A stretch of DNA of 64,000 bases from contig NZ_CP098401.1 of the NCBI RefSeq assembly GCF_023674425.1, positions 1,426,001 to 1,490,000 of the forward strand, given 5' to 3'. The first letter of the stretch is position 1. Every line of letters starts with the position of its first letter. Shown here piece after piece: positions 9,727 to 14,887 of the stretch. The DNA comes from Sphingomonas donggukensis (GTDB taxonomy: Bacteria > Pseudomonadota > Alphaproteobacteria > Sphingomonadales > Sphingomonadaceae). The translations under genes and the position numbers were made by a program. Below the pieces are notes generated by a model that made no database searches, was not told the DNA's origin, and worked only from the letters and a program-made list of their open reading frames with translations.

Positions 9727-11081
9727 TTGCCTGTCTTCTTCGCCAGCATGTTGTCGCGGAAGCGTTTGGCCCAGTTAGGGAGCGCGCGGTGTTCGCCGCG
9801 GGCGACGGCCAGCGCGTCGGGATCGACGTCGCGGGTGATGACCGATCCGGCACCGACGATCGCGCCGGGGCCGATGCTGACCGGAGCGACGAGCGCGCTA
9901 TTCGAGCCGATGAAGGCGCCCGCGCCGATCTTCGTACCGTATTTGAAGAAGCCGTCGTAATTGCAGGTAATCGTGCCCGCGCCGATGTTCGCGCCCGCCC
10001 CCACGTCGGCGTCGCCGATGTAGCTGAGGTGGTTGGCCTTCGCGCCCTTGCCGAGCACGGCCTTCTTCATCTCGACGAAGTTGCCGACCTTCGAACCTTC
10101 ACCCAGTACGGCGCCGGGGCGCAGGCGGGCGAACGGGCCGATCTCGGCACGCGATGCGATCGTGGCCCCCTCCAGATGGCTGAAGGCGTGGATGGTGACG
10201 CCGTCGGCGACGGTCACGCCGGGGCCGAAGACGACGTTGGGCTCGATGGTGACGTCGCGGCCGAGCACCGTGTCATGGGCGAACCAAACGGTGTCGGGGG
10301 CGATCAGCGTCGCGCCGTCGGCCATCGCCTGCGTGCGGCGGGCGTGTTGCCAGTCGGCCTCGACCGCGGCGAGTTCGGCGCGGCTGTTGATGCCCGCGAC
10401 TTCGGCGGCAGCGGTCTCGATCACCGCGGAGGGGCGACCGTCGGCATCGGCGAGCATGACGACGTCGGGCAGGTAATATTCGCCCGCGGCATTGGCGTTG
10501 CCGACGCGCGCGAGCAGGCCGAACAGATCCTCGCCCCGAACCGCGATCAGCCCGGAGTTGCAGAGATCGACCGCGCGCTCGGCATCGGTCGCGTCCTTGA
10601 ACTCCACCATTTTCGTGATGCGACCATCCGCGTCGGCTATGACGCGGCCATAGGCGCCGGGATCGGCGGGGCGGAAGCCGAGCACGACGGCGGCGGGCAG
10701 GTCGGCGGCGTGAAGCCGGTCGATCATCGCGCGCATCGTGGCCGCGCGGACCAGCGGGGCGTCGCCGTAGAGCACGATCACGTCGCCCGCGAAACCGCCC
10801 AAAGCCGCCTCGGCCTGGGCGACGGCGTGGCCGGTGCCGAGTTGCTCGGACTGGTGGACGATCTCCGCCCCCAGGGGCGCGACCGCCGCCTCGACCTGCT
10901 CACGGCGCGCGCCGACCACAACCATCGTGCGGGCGGGCGCGAGTTCGGCGACGCTGTCGATCAGGTGGAGCAGCATCGGGCGCCCGGCGATCGGGTGCAG
11001 CACCTTGTGCGTGTCGGATTTCATGCGCGTACCCTGGCCGGCAGCCAGGATGATCGCAGCGAGGGGGCGCGGTGTGGTCAC
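9723..11081 (-). CDS. glmU: Bifunctional GlcN-1-P acetyltransferase / GlcNAc-1-P uridyltransferase
   Basis: Makes UDP-GlcNAc in two steps. The N-terminal pyrophosphorylase domain shows LAAIILAAGQGTRMKSDTHK near the start, then LYGDAPLVR and NAAGEYYLPD. The C-terminal left-handed beta-helix (from about residue 250) has hexapeptide repeats such as IEPNVVFGPGVTVADG and the acetyltransferase stretch YIGDADVGAGANIGAGTITCNYDG. GTG 11081 gives 452 residues, the family length. The frame stays open further upstream to 11390, but that part is Arg/Pro-rich and antisense to gph, so it is not used. Divergent from gph across only 62 bp. Confidence 0.95.
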   Translation of the reverse strand: MTTPRPLAAIILAAGQGTRMKSDTHKVLHPIAGRPMLLHLIDSVAELAPARTMVVVGARREQVEAAVAPLGAEIVHQSEQLGTGHAVAQAEAALGGFAGDVIVLYGDAPLVRAATMRAMIDRLHAADLPAAVVLGFRPADPGAYGRVIADADGRITKMVEFKDATDAERAVDLCNSGLIAVRGEDLFGLLARVGNANAAGEYYLPDVVMLADADGRPSAVIETAAAEVAGINSRAELAAVEADWQHARRTQAMADGATLIAPDTVWFAHDTVLGRDVTIEPNVVFGPGVTVADGVTIHAFSHLEGATIASRAEIGPFARLRPGAVLGEGSKVGNFVEMKKAVLGKGAKANHLSYIGDADVGAGANIGAGTITCNYDGFFKYGTKIGAGAFIGSNSALVAPVSIGPGAIVGAGSVITRDVDPDALAVARGEHRALPNWAKRFRDNMLAKKTGK

Positions 11082-11143
11082 GCGCGCCGCACTGCCACGA
11101 ACGTCTTGCCAATTCCATAGCCGCGCGTGCAGGCATCGGCGCC

Positions 11144-11845
11144 ATGACCGCAAAACCCTTCGACATCGTCGGTTTCGACCTGGACGGTACGCTCGTGGAC
11201 ACGTCGGGCGACCTGACCGCGGCGGTGAATGTCGCGCTGGCCGCCGCCGGGAGGGCACCGCTGAGCGCAGACGAGGTGCGACCGATGATCGGCGGGGGCG
11301 CGAAGCATATGCTGCGGCTGACGCTGGACGCCACCGGCGGCTGCGACGAGGCGGACTTTCGGCGATATTACAAGATGTTGCTGGCGTCATATGAGGCCAG
11401 TATTTCGGTGCATAGCCAGCCGTTCCCCGGCGCGGTGGACGCGCTCGACCGGCTGGCGGGGCTGGGCGTGACCGTGGCGGTGGTGACCAACAAGTTCGAG
11501 AGCTTTGCGGTGAAGTTGCTCGACGACCTGGGACTCAGCGAGCGGTTCGCGTGCGTGATCGGGGGCGACACGCTCGGCCCCGGCAACGCCAAGCCCTCCC
11601 CCGCCCCGCTCCGCGAGATGATCGAGCGCTGCGGCGGCGGCAGCGCGGCGTTCGTCGGCGATTCGATCTACGATATGATGGCGGCGCGGAATGCGGGCGT
11701 GCCGGCGATCGCGGTCAGCTTCGGCTTCCTGACCGGGCCGGTCGAGGATCTGGGGGCGGACGCTGTGATCGACGATTACGGCGCGCTGATGCCTACGCTG
11801 GACCGGCTTTCCGCCACTTGGTCCACAGGTGCCGCGCGAGCATGA
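11144..11845 (+). CDS. gph: Phosphoglycolate phosphatase (HAD family)
   Basis: Dephosphorylates 2-phosphoglycolate, formed from oxidised DNA ends and other sources. HAD motifs are in place: FDLDGTLVDT (motif I, catalytic Asp near residue 11), VTNKFES (motif II), the lysine in NAKPSPAPL (motif III) and FVGDSIYDMMAARNAG (motif IV). ATG 11144 gives 233 residues; an earlier in-frame start at 11072 would run into glmU. Its 3' end overlaps the convergent nucleotidyltransferase gene by 53 bp, so the last 17 codons of gph are also coding on the other strand. Other HAD phosphatase substrates are possible, but the sequence fits Gph well. Confidence 0.9.
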   Translation: MTAKPFDIVGFDLDGTLVDTSGDLTAAVNVALAAAGRAPLSADEVRPMIGGGAKHMLRLTLDATGGCDEADFRRYYKMLLASYEASISVHSQPFPGAVDALDRLAGLGVTVAVVTNKFESFAVKLLDDLGLSERFACVIGGDTLGPGNAKPSPAPLREMIERCGGGSAAFVGDSIYDMMAARNAGVPAIAVSFGFLTGPVEDLGADAVIDDYGALMPTLDRLSATWSTGAARA

Positions 11846-12800
11846 GTGGCGGCATGCGGAGCCAGTGCGAGCGGATGTAGAAGGCCAGGCGCGTGAGCGG
11901 GCGCGTGGCGCGGCCCCAGCCGTCGCGGGCGAGCAGGCGGCGGCGGTAGAGACGGTCGGCGAGCGTTAGCGGACTGACAGGTTTCTCGACTTCGCTCGGG
12001 GAGTAGAGCGCCTGCGCCAGCCGCATCGCGCGCGCGGCTTCGCGCTCCAGCCCGTGGTGGCGGGCACGCGCCATCAGCGCCGACGTCTCGACCTCCTTCA
12101 GCAGGCAGTGGATGTCCCACAGGTTGCGCAATCCCCCCGCCAGATCGCCGTCGGCGAACAGATGCGCGACCGAGTGCAGCACCATGTCCTCACGCGACAG
12201 CACGCGCAGGCCGTTTCCCAGTGTCACGCTGTCGTCGATCATCGCGTCGATGTCGGGCGTGATGCGGGCGGTGAGCGGCAGGATGGTATGGTGGACGTCG
12301 ATCATCCGGTCGCGCTCGCGGTGGATGAGCGGGGGGAGTTCGTGCATCCAGTGGCGGTAATAGGCGTCGTCGTAGGGATCGGGCTTCACCCATTCCCACC
12401 CCGCCGCCAGCAGCGCCGCTTCGACCGCGTCGAGCGAAGCCCGGGGCACGAGAATGTCGAGATCGCCGATCGACCGCCCCTGCCCCGCCTGCAAGCCCGC
12501 GGCGACATAGGCGGTCCCCTTCAGCAGCACGACCGGTACCCCGAGCAGTGCGAGGACGCGGTGCGCGGCCTCCGCCTCCCACAGCGCGGCGATGCGGCCC
12601 TGTTCGGCGGAGGCGAGGGTTGCGGTCAGCAGGCAGTCGGCGGCGGGGGGTTTGGCGATGCCGGTGACGCGGCGGGCGAGCGTGCCCGCCATCTGCTCGG
12701 CCCGCGCCATGGCGATCAGCGCGGTCCAGCCGTCGCCGTCGAGCGCCGCGGTGGAGGCCGGATCGCGCAGCGCGCGGACCAGGGTCATGGCGTCGGTCAC
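11793..12800 (-). CDS. Nucleotidyltransferase-family protein of an HPr-rel-A cassette
   Basis: 335 residues, resembling the uncharacterised nucleotidyltransferase family PF14907 (NTP_transf_5). The core VVLLKGTAYVAAGL followed by GRSIGDLDILVPRA gives the DxD metal-binding pair typical of pol-beta-like nucleotidyltransferases. Later motifs are HWMHELPPLIHRE, RMIDVHHTILP and EDMVLHSVAHLF. GTG 12800 overlaps the kinase stop as GTGA; ATG 12788 is a fallback. It is third in a coupled PqqD-like / HprK-related kinase / nucleotidyltransferase set, an arrangement known as the HPr-rel-A system, whose product is unknown. Bases 11976-11998 carry a fragment of the local palindromic repeat inside the coding frame (residues SEVEKPV). 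Confidence 0.85.
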   Translation of the reverse strand: MTDAMTLVRALRDPASTAALDGDGWTALIAMARAEQMAGTLARRVTGIAKPPAADCLLTATLASAEQGRIAALWEAEAAHRVLALLGVPVVLLKGTAYVAAGLQAGQGRSIGDLDILVPRASLDAVEAALLAAGWEWVKPDPYDDAYYRHWMHELPPLIHRERDRMIDVHHTILPLTARITPDIDAMIDDSVTLGNGLRVLSREDMVLHSVAHLFADGDLAGGLRNLWDIHCLLKEVETSALMARARHHGLEREAARAMRLAQALYSPSEVEKPVSPLTLADRLYRRRLLARDGWGRATRPLTRLAFYIRSHWLRMPPLMLARHLWTKWRKAGPA

Positions 12801-13657
12801 AGCGCGGACCACTCCGCCTCGACCATCTCCAGCGCGGCGTCCGTGTCGGGATAGTCGATCGCGCGTGATGGCACGGCGCGGACGAGATGGGTCAGCGCGT
12901 CGAACCCGGCTTCTCCGAGCGCGGTGTAGTTGGTCGATGCCTGGGTCAGCCGCACGAACGCCTCACTCTGCGGCAATGGGCGCGTGGCGGGGTCGAAGCC
13001 GAAGCTGGGGAACAGGATCAGCGCCGGACGCGCGGGCTGATCCATCCGCACGATCGCGGTGGCGTCGGGCACCATGTGGCGGAGGTCACCCTTCGGCGTG
13101 CTCGCCAGCAGCGGCCCGAAGCGGGCGGCCGGCGCCGCCGCCTGCATCACGCCGACGCTCGCATTCTTCAGGCTGACGAGCCGCGGGAAGGCGTGGACCA
13201 GGCCGGTCGCGGGGTCGAGCAGCGCGAATTCGTCGCCCATCAGGCGCCAGCCGCGCGTCGCAAGCAGCGCGGCGAGGGTCGACTTCCCCGCGCCCGACAC
13301 CCCCGTCATCAGCAGCGCGCGTCCGTCGCGCTCGACCGCGGAGGCGTGGAGCAGCAGGTAGCGCCGCTCGCCCAGCGCCAGTTGCAGGTTCATCGCCATT
13401 TCCGCGGCGAGCACGCCCCAGTCGAGCGGCATCGGCACCGCGTCGGGCAATGTGAAATCTCCGCCGAGCGTAATCGCTGGCCTCAGCCAGCGGCGCCACG
13501 GACGCGCGGCGAACAGGCGGACGTTGTAGTCGGCAACGCCATCGTTTGGAGCGGGATAGTCGCGGTAGAGGTCGGCGATCTGCGCGATCGGCGCGCGCCA
13601 GTCGCTGCCGATGCGGAACCCGACCGGGCCGATGCGGACGCGGTGGACGTGCTTCAT
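12797..13657 (-). CDS. HprK-related kinase A
   Basis: A 286-residue P-loop protein related to HPr kinase/phosphorylase. HASAVERDGRALLMTGVSG leads into the Walker A GVSGAGKST (residues about 119-127). GDEFALLD (about 141-148) is the acidic second motif, and PRLVSLKN (158-165) follows. True HprK enzymes are longer and sit with PTS genes; no HPr or PTS gene is in this window. ATG 13657 overlaps the PqqD-like stop (ATGA), and its own stop overlaps the next gene (GTGA). The family co-occurs with a PqqD-like protein and a nucleotidyltransferase, as here, and its substrate is not known to me. Confidence 0.88.
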   Translation of the reverse strand: MKHVHRVRIGPVGFRIGSDWRAPIAQIADLYRDYPAPNDGVADYNVRLFAARPWRRWLRPAITLGGDFTLPDAVPMPLDWGVLAAEMAMNLQLALGERRYLLLHASAVERDGRALLMTGVSGAGKSTLAALLATRGWRLMGDEFALLDPATGLVHAFPRLVSLKNASVGVMQAAAPAARFGPLLASTPKGDLRHMVPDATAIVRMDQPARPALILFPSFGFDPATRPLPQSEAFVRLTQASTNYTALGEAGFDALTHLVRAVPSRAIDYPDTDAALEMVEAEWSAL

Positions 13658-13923
13658 GCGCGCGATACCAGTCCGGCGGCTTCGAGTTCGGCGAGGCGTT
13701 CCGTCAGCGCGGCGGGGTCGGCGTCGGGGAGTTCATATTCGTTGGCAAGATGGGCGAGCAATGCGTCGAGATCGCGGGGTTTGTTGAGGGCGGCGAGCAG
13801 CTCGGGAACCGGCGATGCGACGACGTGGGTGATGCCGGAAGTGCGGTGGTAGATGAGAGTGAGCGCGTCGAGGTCGACGATGCGCAGGGTGCGGGGGTCG
13901 GCGGCGGTGTAGCGGTTCGTCAC
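13654..13923 (-). CDS. PqqD-family peptide chaperone-like protein (HPr-rel-A system)
   Basis: An 89-residue PqqD-like protein. PqqD relatives bind a peptide substrate and present it to a modifying enzyme. The pattern fits: an N-terminal beta region (IVDLDALTLIYHRTSGITHVV), then a winged-helix-like helical part (SPVPELLAALNK; DLDALLAHLANEY; ERLAELEAAGLV). GTG 13923 has GAGGGG about 8 bases upstream; ATG 13941 would add six residues with a weaker ribosome site. There is no radical-SAM gene nearby, unlike the PQQ pathway. It is first in the coupled cassette with the HprK-related kinase and the nucleotidyltransferase. Confidence 0.82.
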   Translation of the reverse strand: MTNRYTAADPRTLRIVDLDALTLIYHRTSGITHVVASPVPELLAALNKPRDLDALLAHLANEYELPDADPAALTERLAELEAAGLVSRA

Positions 13924-13984
13924 TATCCTTGCCCCTCGCATCTACCCGTTAGTCGTGGATCGGATTGGCGCGCGGTCTCGAGTC

Positions 13985-14396
13985 CCACGATGTCTCGATA
14001 CGAGCCCTCGATACGCGTGTGCCACGCTACTCGGTCTCTCCTCGACAAGAACGGTTTTTGAAGCGCGCGCGGCATGGCGATCTTGGCAGGGGTCGTTTCG
14101 GTTGGCGTCGGGCGTTGCGCGGCCGTTGCGACGCCGCGGCACATCAGCCCGGCGAAGCTCCCGACGGTCAATCCCTCACTTTCGAAATATGCCAGCCCAA
14201 CCGCCCTGCGACATACGCTATCCATCCCGCACCGCCGTGAGCGCCGTCGAGCATCGCGCCTGATCCGCACAACCCTTGCCCACCCCCTACCGTTCGTCCC
14301 GAGTAGCGATCGAGTAGGCCGCAGGCCGTATCGAGATCGCGTATCGAGGGATTTGGCGGGCGCAGATGTCTCGACAGGAACCGCTATAAGAAAGCC
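13985..14396. repeat. Gene-free region bracketed by imperfect inverted repeats
   Basis: About 450 bases without a convincing gene lie between the PqqD-like gene and the Tat protein gene. Several blocks on the left recur as reverse complements on the right: 14005-14017 with 14338-14350 (13 of 13), 14025-14034 with 14299-14308 (10 of 10), and a TCTCGATACG block near 13993 with its complement near 14327. The order is partly scrambled, so these look like two diverged copies of a repeat in opposite orientation around about 230 bp. The promoter of the HPr-rel-A cassette should also lie here. Confidence 0.6.
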
Positions 14397-14789
14397 TCAG
14401 CCGCGCGGCATTTGCAGGGAGGCGAAGCAGGTGAAGCCGCTTTGGCCGGATTGCAGACGGCGGATGTAGTTGGTGTACGCCTTGCTGCGTTCGTAGTCGG
14501 TGCCGGGCAGCGTGCCGCCGTTCAGCGCCTTTTTCACATCCTCGCCCTTGAACGCGGCACCTGCGGGCGGGAAGGCGCCGGGGGTGCCGGGATCGACCAG
14601 CGAGCCGTCGGCGGCGATGTATTTGCCGGCGCGGCCGGGATCGGGGACCGGGATTTCGCAGTTCGCGACCGATCCGGCCGCCTGCGCCAGCGCCGGGCGG
14701 ATCGAGACGATCGCCGATGCCCCGACCGCGCCGATCATTAGCGCGCGGCGGCGGGTCGATCCGGTCGGAAGGTCGCTGTCGTCGCTCAT
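14397..14789 (-). CDS. Small Tat-exported protein of unknown function
   Basis: 130 residues. The N-terminus has STRRRALMIGAVGASAIVSI followed by RPALAQ, a twin-arginine signal with an AxA-like cleavage site, so the protein is probably exported folded. The mature part has two cysteines (VANCEIP and GFTCFAS), Gly/Pro-rich turns (PVPDPGRAGKYI) and a helical C-terminal half (YERSKAYTNYIRRLQSG). ATG 14789 is preceded by AGGGG five bases upstream; the GTG just before it is too close to that site. No named family recognised. It lies upstream of the HPr-rel-A cassette on the same strand but 470 bp away, and is divergent from phoR. Confidence 0.75.
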   Translation of the reverse strand: MSDDSDLPTGSTRRRALMIGAVGASAIVSIRPALAQAAGSVANCEIPVPDPGRAGKYIAADGSLVDPGTPGAFPPAGAAFKGEDVKKALNGGTLPGTDYERSKAYTNYIRRLQSGQSGFTCFASLQMPRG

Positions 14790-14887
14790 CACTGCCCCTT
14801 GTCCGCCATTTGCCTTTCACAATCGTGAAGGCGGTGCAAGCGCGTGCTTTACGGCGCGCGTCCCGTTCCGCTACGCCGCTTGGCGCT

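Follow-up and report, generated by a model that had tools for sequence, protein, structure and literature searches.

Three minus-strand genes encoding a PqqD-like protein, an HprK-related kinase and a nucleotidyltransferase-fold protein form a compact trio in the window, the 64,000-nucleotide stretch of Sphingomonas donggukensis DNA analysed here (contig NZ_CP098401.1, positions 1,426,001 to 1,490,000), and the next minus-strand gene upstream encodes a small protein with a twin-arginine-type signal (Table 1). The overlaps joining the PqqD-like and kinase genes (ATGA, 13654-13657) and the kinase and nucleotidyltransferase genes (GTGA, 12797-12800) were read in the sequence, and each product scored above its curated cut-off: 53.7 bits against 35 for TIGR04353 and 245.9 against 200 for TIGR04352 in NCBIfam, and 172.4 against 31.2 for PF14907 in Pfam. 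The gene order, 4-bp overlaps and protein types given in a preliminary description of this DNA were all confirmed, and the GVSGAGKST and D-L-D elements that it had reported in the kinase and the nucleotidyltransferase were found at the expected places. Its assignment of the genes to the HPr-rel-A system also held, with TIGR04352 and TIGR04353 over their cut-offs and no target given in the library names or descriptions. However, that description had presented a three-gene set and omitted the fourth member, and its statement that there was no visible target was overturned by this co-encoded, co-inherited exported protein adjoining the trio.

Table 1. Coordinates of the four genes and their sequence features in the window
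Feature	Position	Strand	Basis or remark
Exported small protein, candidate substrate, 130 residues	14397..14789	-	ATG at 14789; GTG at 14792 possible
Twin-arginine-type signal RRRALMIGAVGASAIVSIRPALAQ, residues 13-36	14682..14753	-	Sequence only; has hydrophobic-hydrophobic-[TS]-[LIVFMA] step
C-terminal motif T-C-F-A-S, residues 120-124	14418..14432	-	Sequence
Ser124, predicted phospho-acceptor	14418-14420	-	Motif conservation
PqqD-like protein (recognition element type), TIGR04353	13654..13923	-	GTG start; upstream ATG at 13941 possible
HprK-related kinase A, TIGR04352	12797..13657	-	Profile match, alignment
Kinase Walker A, GVSGAGKST	13277..13303	-	Sequence, alignment
Nucleotidyltransferase-fold protein, PF14907	11793..12800	-	GTG start; Pfam match, alignment, model
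Nucleotidyltransferase D-L-D acid pair	12456..12464	-	Sequence, alignment
Nucleotidyltransferase third invariant Asp	12297-12299	-	Alignment

Co-inheritance and conserved ends of the exported protein

The trio is preceded by a gene for a small protein whose signal is of twin-arginine type and whose C-terminus carries a [ST]-C-x-x-S motif, and this gene and that of the kinase tend to occur in the same genomes. A profile built from 19 such proteins (19 of 22 references) of the family Sphingomonadaceae, to which the window genome belongs within the order Sphingomonadales, was run together with the kinase model on 139 genomes of that family. The exported protein was detected (E<=1e-4) in 41 genomes and the kinase in 42, the 41 lying wholly within the 42, and at the same threshold the protein was found in none of the 97 kinase-free genomes (Fisher p about 1e-34, for related and hence not independent genomes). 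Each of the two sets covered 31 of the 96 genera. In the 42nd kinase-bearing genome (G895) a copy is linked to the kinase but has diverged too far to be found by the profile; it ends TCLVSLTNNLNLHI. Among the partial profile matches, that in G832 showed no motif in the frame read, that in G883 was cut by a contig end and that in G864 has VSCLMS. Gene and kinase were within 2 kb of each other in 38 genomes, and both were kept where unlinked, at distances of 163 kb in G035 and 279 kb in G077 and on different contigs in G050. In G050 (L181) the cassette is split, with the exported protein and a TIGR04353 protein on one contig and the kinase and nucleotidyltransferase on another; in G035 and G077 (L182, L183) the unlinked gene lies among genes which we take to resemble tad/cpa pilus genes. 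A search of a second collection with the exported protein gave 407 relatives; of the best 80, mostly from sphingomonads, 78 have the kinase on the same strand and no more than 1 kb downstream (misses, L206 and L208); these 80 loci were found by motif and signal patterns, so their motif counts are not independent.

The preliminary description had proposed comparing the neighbourhoods of kinase homologues for a conserved exported protein, and this comparison was made at 101 trio loci, where an open reading frame (ORF) chosen by signal and position alone in a strict upstream window was found in 77. Two mis-picks (L053 and L088) were removed before residues were counted, leaving 75 proteins, and 200 shuffles of the same proteins served as the control. 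The pattern [STN]CxxS was present in 72 of the 75 (shuffled mean 9, maximum 18), and all 72 close the motif with Ser, even though the pattern used also accepted Thr. Counted from the last Cys, with Ser not required in choosing that Cys, the third following residue was Ser in 67/75 and the preceding one S or T in 66/75, and a median of 6 residues, up to 44, followed the Ser position. At the other end, the signal pattern hydrophobic-hydrophobic-[TS]-[LIVFMA] was found in 74/75 proteins (shuffle mean 36) and was preceded at four residues by Pro in 56 (shuffle mean 2), giving a conserved stretch P-x-[VI]-x-[TS]-L, of which S-A-I-V-S-I is the window variant. Signal and motif occurred together 78 times on the same strand upstream of the trio, in 76 loci, with 6 further occurrences in the 6620 ORFs examined. 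Of these, the one at L161 is a true copy that is encoded on the other strand and points away from the kinase. Two CxxS exported-protein genes each lie upstream of one trio at L060 and L078, and at L088 gene and kinase are about 4 kb apart.

Among the 24 loci lacking an ORF in the strict window, L042, L043, L045, L050, L052 and L078 have a motif protein in a wider window, and L137, L139, L140, L145 and L151-L156 have an exported protein without CxxS; L161, with its copy on the other strand, and L133, L146 and L170, where none is visible, also belong to these 24. No exported motif protein was seen near L069-L071 or L077; the genome of L069 (G166) was outside the 139-genome sample. In 60 neighbourhoods from the order, a relative of the window protein was found upstream of the kinase in 24 of 28 other loci of the same family and in one locus of another family, and at most of the remaining loci of the order the ORF looks different but shares both ends, which is also the case at many loci outside it. 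The trio is usually accompanied by a fourth gene just upstream, and the small exported protein that it encodes is likely to be the target.

The window protein itself, whose C-terminus reads TCFASLQMPRG, matched nothing in Pfam or NCBIfam at E<=1, and its profile gave no convincing match to Protein Data Bank (PDB) sequences (best E=0.13). The Pfam and NCBIfam models for twin-arginine translocation (Tat) signals did not match it, and gave sub-cut-off scores only in 3 of 10 relatives. It is a putative Tat substrate, judged by its signal sequence only; tatC is present in the window genome.

Its gene is separated from that of the PqqD-like protein by a long gap (about 470 bases) occupied by a long-range inverted repeat (13994-14350; 22-nt arms 86% complementary, plus a perfect 13-nt pair), which we take to be REP-like. 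Exported protein and kinase are about 740 bases apart in the window, compared with 265-735 in 78 relatives. At the other end of the cassette, the nucleotidyltransferase gene overlaps the 3' end of a convergent phosphoglycolate-phosphatase-like gene (11072-11845, plus strand) by 53 bases (11793-11845).

Enzyme residues and genomic setting

Pattern-based gene picks among the 101 loci gave 63 kinases, 47 PqqD-like proteins and 48 nucleotidyltransferases, and alignments were made with the references available from 32 pre-selected loci (17/20 kinases, 15/15 PqqD-like proteins and 13/13 nucleotidyltransferases). In the kinase, H104, K125, S126, D142 and E143 were invariant in all 17 aligned sequences. 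Set beside the conserved catalytic His-Lys-Asp-Asp residues of lasso-type tailoring kinases, H104, K125 and D142 are kept and the second Asp is replaced by Glu143, which also stands where HPr kinase has its second Asp (D-E versus D-D). HPr kinase was the best match of the kinase profile (E=1.6e-5); the canonical HPr(Ser) kinase model TIGR00679 gave 21.1 bits against a cut-off of 240. The kinase was over its cut-off in 88/196 genomes of the order, 8/289 of a class sample and 61/398 of a phylum sample, of which 2 of the class 8 and 13 of the phylum 61 are genomes of the order; viral contigs gave no match to the kinase patterns. In the window genome, another HprK-like P-loop domain lies towards the end of a 540-residue ORF (L002:424-2046, C1 near 2338602) that is followed by a methyltransferase-like ORF, with a weak TIGR04352 score of 45.1 bits.

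The nucleotidyltransferase residues D117, D119 and D172 were invariant in 13/13 aligned sequences. Nucleotidyl transfer and sugar-phosphate transfer both remain candidate activities for this enzyme, because its predicted structure (pLDDT 89) matches MenT1 (E=1.9e-4), ANT(2'') and, weakly, FKRP. For the PqqD-like profile, the best PDB sequence match was the lasso B1 protein TfuB1, a weak one (E=0.012, with unrelated chains from 0.025), and TbiB1 was weaker still (E=0.29).

Outside the window's own family, the cassette is often flanked by families of the XrtA/PEP-CTERM exopolysaccharide (EPS) system: at least one is present in 18/32 loci from the order's other families and in 27/40 loci outside the order. 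These families were the stp1 and stp2 glycosyltransferases, eps_aminotran_1, exosortase A, FemAB and PrsT, as labelled by annotating ten recurrent gene clusters with one member scanned per cluster. An AsnB-like neighbour at 26 loci was considered as a lasso cyclase and rejected, since the scanned member scored 883.7 bits for eps_aminotran_1 and 264 for the lasso cyclase (cut-off 525). An XrtA locus with eps_aminotran_1 and stp1 lies about 187 kb from the cassette in the window genome.

Proposed modification route and alternatives

The findings are probably best explained by a four-gene modification-and-export cassette in which the small exported protein is the modified partner. By analogy with known systems, we infer a route of precursor capture, CxxS phosphorylation, extension by the PF14907 enzyme and Tat export. 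The PqqD-like protein would act as the cytoplasmic recognition element presenting the precursor, with a predicted leader contact most likely made through the hydrophobic P-x-[VI]-x-[TS]-L part of the signal; this stretch is similar to the P-x-[VL] half of recognition motifs already described and may serve as the leader. The kinase would then phosphorylate the CxxS serine, and the phosphate would next receive a sugar or a nucleotide from the PF14907 enzyme, the role suggested for PsmN in pseudomycoidin. Tat would then carry out the protein in modified, folded form, a kind of export that fits modification completed beforehand, and the product would act on the cell surface, probably within or alongside the EPS layer. 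The preliminary description had been right to suggest a peptide- or protein-modifying system, the same enzyme types being known to phosphorylate lasso peptides and linear polyphosphorylated peptides (LPP); it had left the partner unnamed, and a strong candidate has now been found. A bolder version, offered tentatively, would make the cassette a Tat-dependent proteobacterial counterpart of the phosphorylated ribosomally synthesized and post-translationally modified peptides (RiPPs), with the signal as leader and the phosphoserine turned into a phosphodiester-linked sugar that fastens the protein to the EPS layer.

Several observations weigh against this explanation. Beyond the genetics, everything is inferred, and the absence of the protein from the 97 kinase-free genomes falls short of proof because the profile missed the divergent G895 copy. 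No such exported protein is visible at L133, L146 and L170, although the contigs of L133 and L170 start only about 1.2-1.4 kb upstream of the trio. At 13 distant loci (L132, L137, L139, L140, L145, L148, L149 and L151-L156) the exported protein has no CxxS, so the CxxS serine is not the acceptor at every locus, and there the acceptor may differ or sit in the signal. The predicted model of the exported protein is of low confidence (pLDDT 66, under 50 at the motif) and found no PDB fold match, and the weak match of the PqqD-like profile to lasso B1 proteins limits the suggested role as a recognition element. The nucleotidyltransferase step is the weakest, because LppN gave no detectable change in its heterologous test (PMC13381572). 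The EPS role is an association: EPS genes flank the cassette in only 1/29 loci of its own family, and none lies immediately around it in the window. Several of the CxxS-free proteins have SPG[FY]W- or HGYW-like bodies, and 8 of these 13 loci have a cluster 20 gene close by; the one member of that cluster that was scanned is similar to HtrA-type proteases, at scores below the cut-offs.

The same CxxS-free loci bear on whether the protein is modified elsewhere, at the conserved Thr/Ser of its signal, such that phosphorylation gates export or signal cleavage. The signal residue is better kept than the C-terminal Ser (74/75 against 67/75), is present in some CxxS-free proteins (L132 and L149), and has a parallel in the target residue of LppK, which adjoins the leader and not the C-terminus (PMC13381572). 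It is, however, mostly Thr (56/74), and an S3T variant of LppA showed no phosphorylation in the same source; moreover, the pattern is permissive, Ser and Thr are ordinary in the h-regions of signals, and the near-terminal CxxS would be left without explanation. A signal acceptor is judged unlikely. Much the same standing, that of an outside chance, is given to a trio that serves an exosortase substrate (a PEP-CTERM protein) or an EPS glycan, with the small protein as helper or sensor. XrtA-type genes flank many distant loci, the window genome carries an XrtA locus, and exosortase is enriched with the trio, both in the order (85/90 trio-bearing genomes, including G093 and G006 just under the kinase cut-off, against 65/106 others) and in a hand-picked wider set (24/40 against 4/40). 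The 65 genomes with exosortase and no trio count against a tie between the cassette and the EPS layer as well. As an obligate partner, exosortase was rejected, since 16/40 trio-bearing genomes of the wider set show none, and the near one-to-one partner of the trio is the small protein and not exosortase.

Simple synteny, in which the exported protein is an unrelated neighbour held together with phoR, glmU and glmS, is favoured by the frequent presence of relatives of these three genes nearby in the order. It is very unlikely, as none of the 97 kinase-free genomes yielded the protein, its gene persists away from the kinase in G035, G077 and G050, and it is found upstream of the trio even in distant families, where the flanking genes are quite different. 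Least probable of all, and hardly credible, is modification of HPr or another protein of the phosphotransferase system (PTS) in the manner of HPr kinase. The kinase does share the P-loop, His, Lys and Asp with HPr kinase, and the statement in the preliminary description that no HPr or PTS gene is present holds for the genes scanned beside the trio (HAD phosphatase, GlmU and PhoR) but not for the genome, which encodes HPr (PF00381) roughly 515 kb away. That HPr is probably served by its own kinase, because a separate HPr-kinase-domain protein (PF07475, over cut-off) is encoded 1.5 kb from it, and HPr was set aside as the cassette target on this ground; in addition, the trio kinase has D-E in place of D-D, a PqqD-like partner and an exported neighbour.

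In the NCBI library the kinase and its PqqD partner have names, but their target does not. In open-licence literature, with subscription journals mostly outside coverage, 'HPr-rel-A' gave no match, and no open-licence title or abstract start paired a TIGR04352 kinase with an exported protein. Now that a single protein and a single serine stand out as candidates, one mass-spectrometry experiment could test an orphan system that many sphingomonads share with other families of the phylum. If the four-gene cassette works as proposed, kinase-tailored peptides would extend to Tat-exported proteins, and PF14907 enzymes would gain a testable acceptor.

Comparison with known systems

By its TIGR04352 and TIGR04353 matches the window trio is the HPr-rel-A system, to which a fourth, exported component is added here. 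That system includes an adjacent nucleotidyltransferase, and the window has an overlapping PF14907 gene. The XrtA/PEP-CTERM system (PMC1569441) contributes the genes that flank the cassette in many loci outside its own family; unlike PEP-CTERM proteins, the small protein usually ends a few residues after CxxS, and it had no PEP-CTERM match in general NCBIfam scans, which included no dedicated PEP-CTERM run.

The nearest known systems are the LPP clusters of Bacillota and the phosphorylated lasso peptides; membership of either kind of cluster was set aside as required parts are missing. Neither a SipW-like peptidase nor an MsbA-like transporter was seen among the scanned window neighbours or the ten annotated clusters (one member each), and no lasso B2 protease or macrolactam cyclase was seen among the scanned window neighbours. 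According to PMC13381572, LPP clusters of Bacillota comprise a recognition element, kinase, nucleoside triphosphate (NTP) transferase, peptidase and transporter and lie inside capsule loci, and Ser3 of the LPP core is the residue that LppK phosphorylates; no product was seen on S3T or S3Y. The discrete recognition element, HprK-like kinase and NTP transferase are shared with the cassette, as are a variable-bodied precursor with a conserved N-terminal part and a setting in polysaccharide loci. LPP systems differ in their SipW-like peptidase, MsbA-like transporter and YxxPxVL leaders, whereas the cassette has a Tat-type signal and a C-terminal CxxS; the window signal contains no Tyr, and most relatives have P-x-[VI] without Tyr.

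The lasso systems are described in PMC9266682, where PadeK phosphorylates the C-terminal serine of the lasso precursor, ThcoK and SyanK attach several phosphates, and PsmN, of the pair PsmK/PsmN, is needed to place hexoses on the phosphate, although the study did not exclude that a host enzyme does so once nucleotidylation has taken place. The cassette precursor is an exported protein of roughly 90-290 residues, in contrast to the short threaded lasso peptide. The enzymes are nonetheless alike: lasso B1 belongs to the PqqD superfamily (PMC7533575), as does the PqqD-like protein of the cassette; the annotated nucleotidyltransferase linked to hexose on phosphate has its counterpart in the PF14907 enzyme; and the kinases of paeninodin and pseudomycoidin act on a C-terminal Ser, comparable to the near-terminal Ser predicted here.

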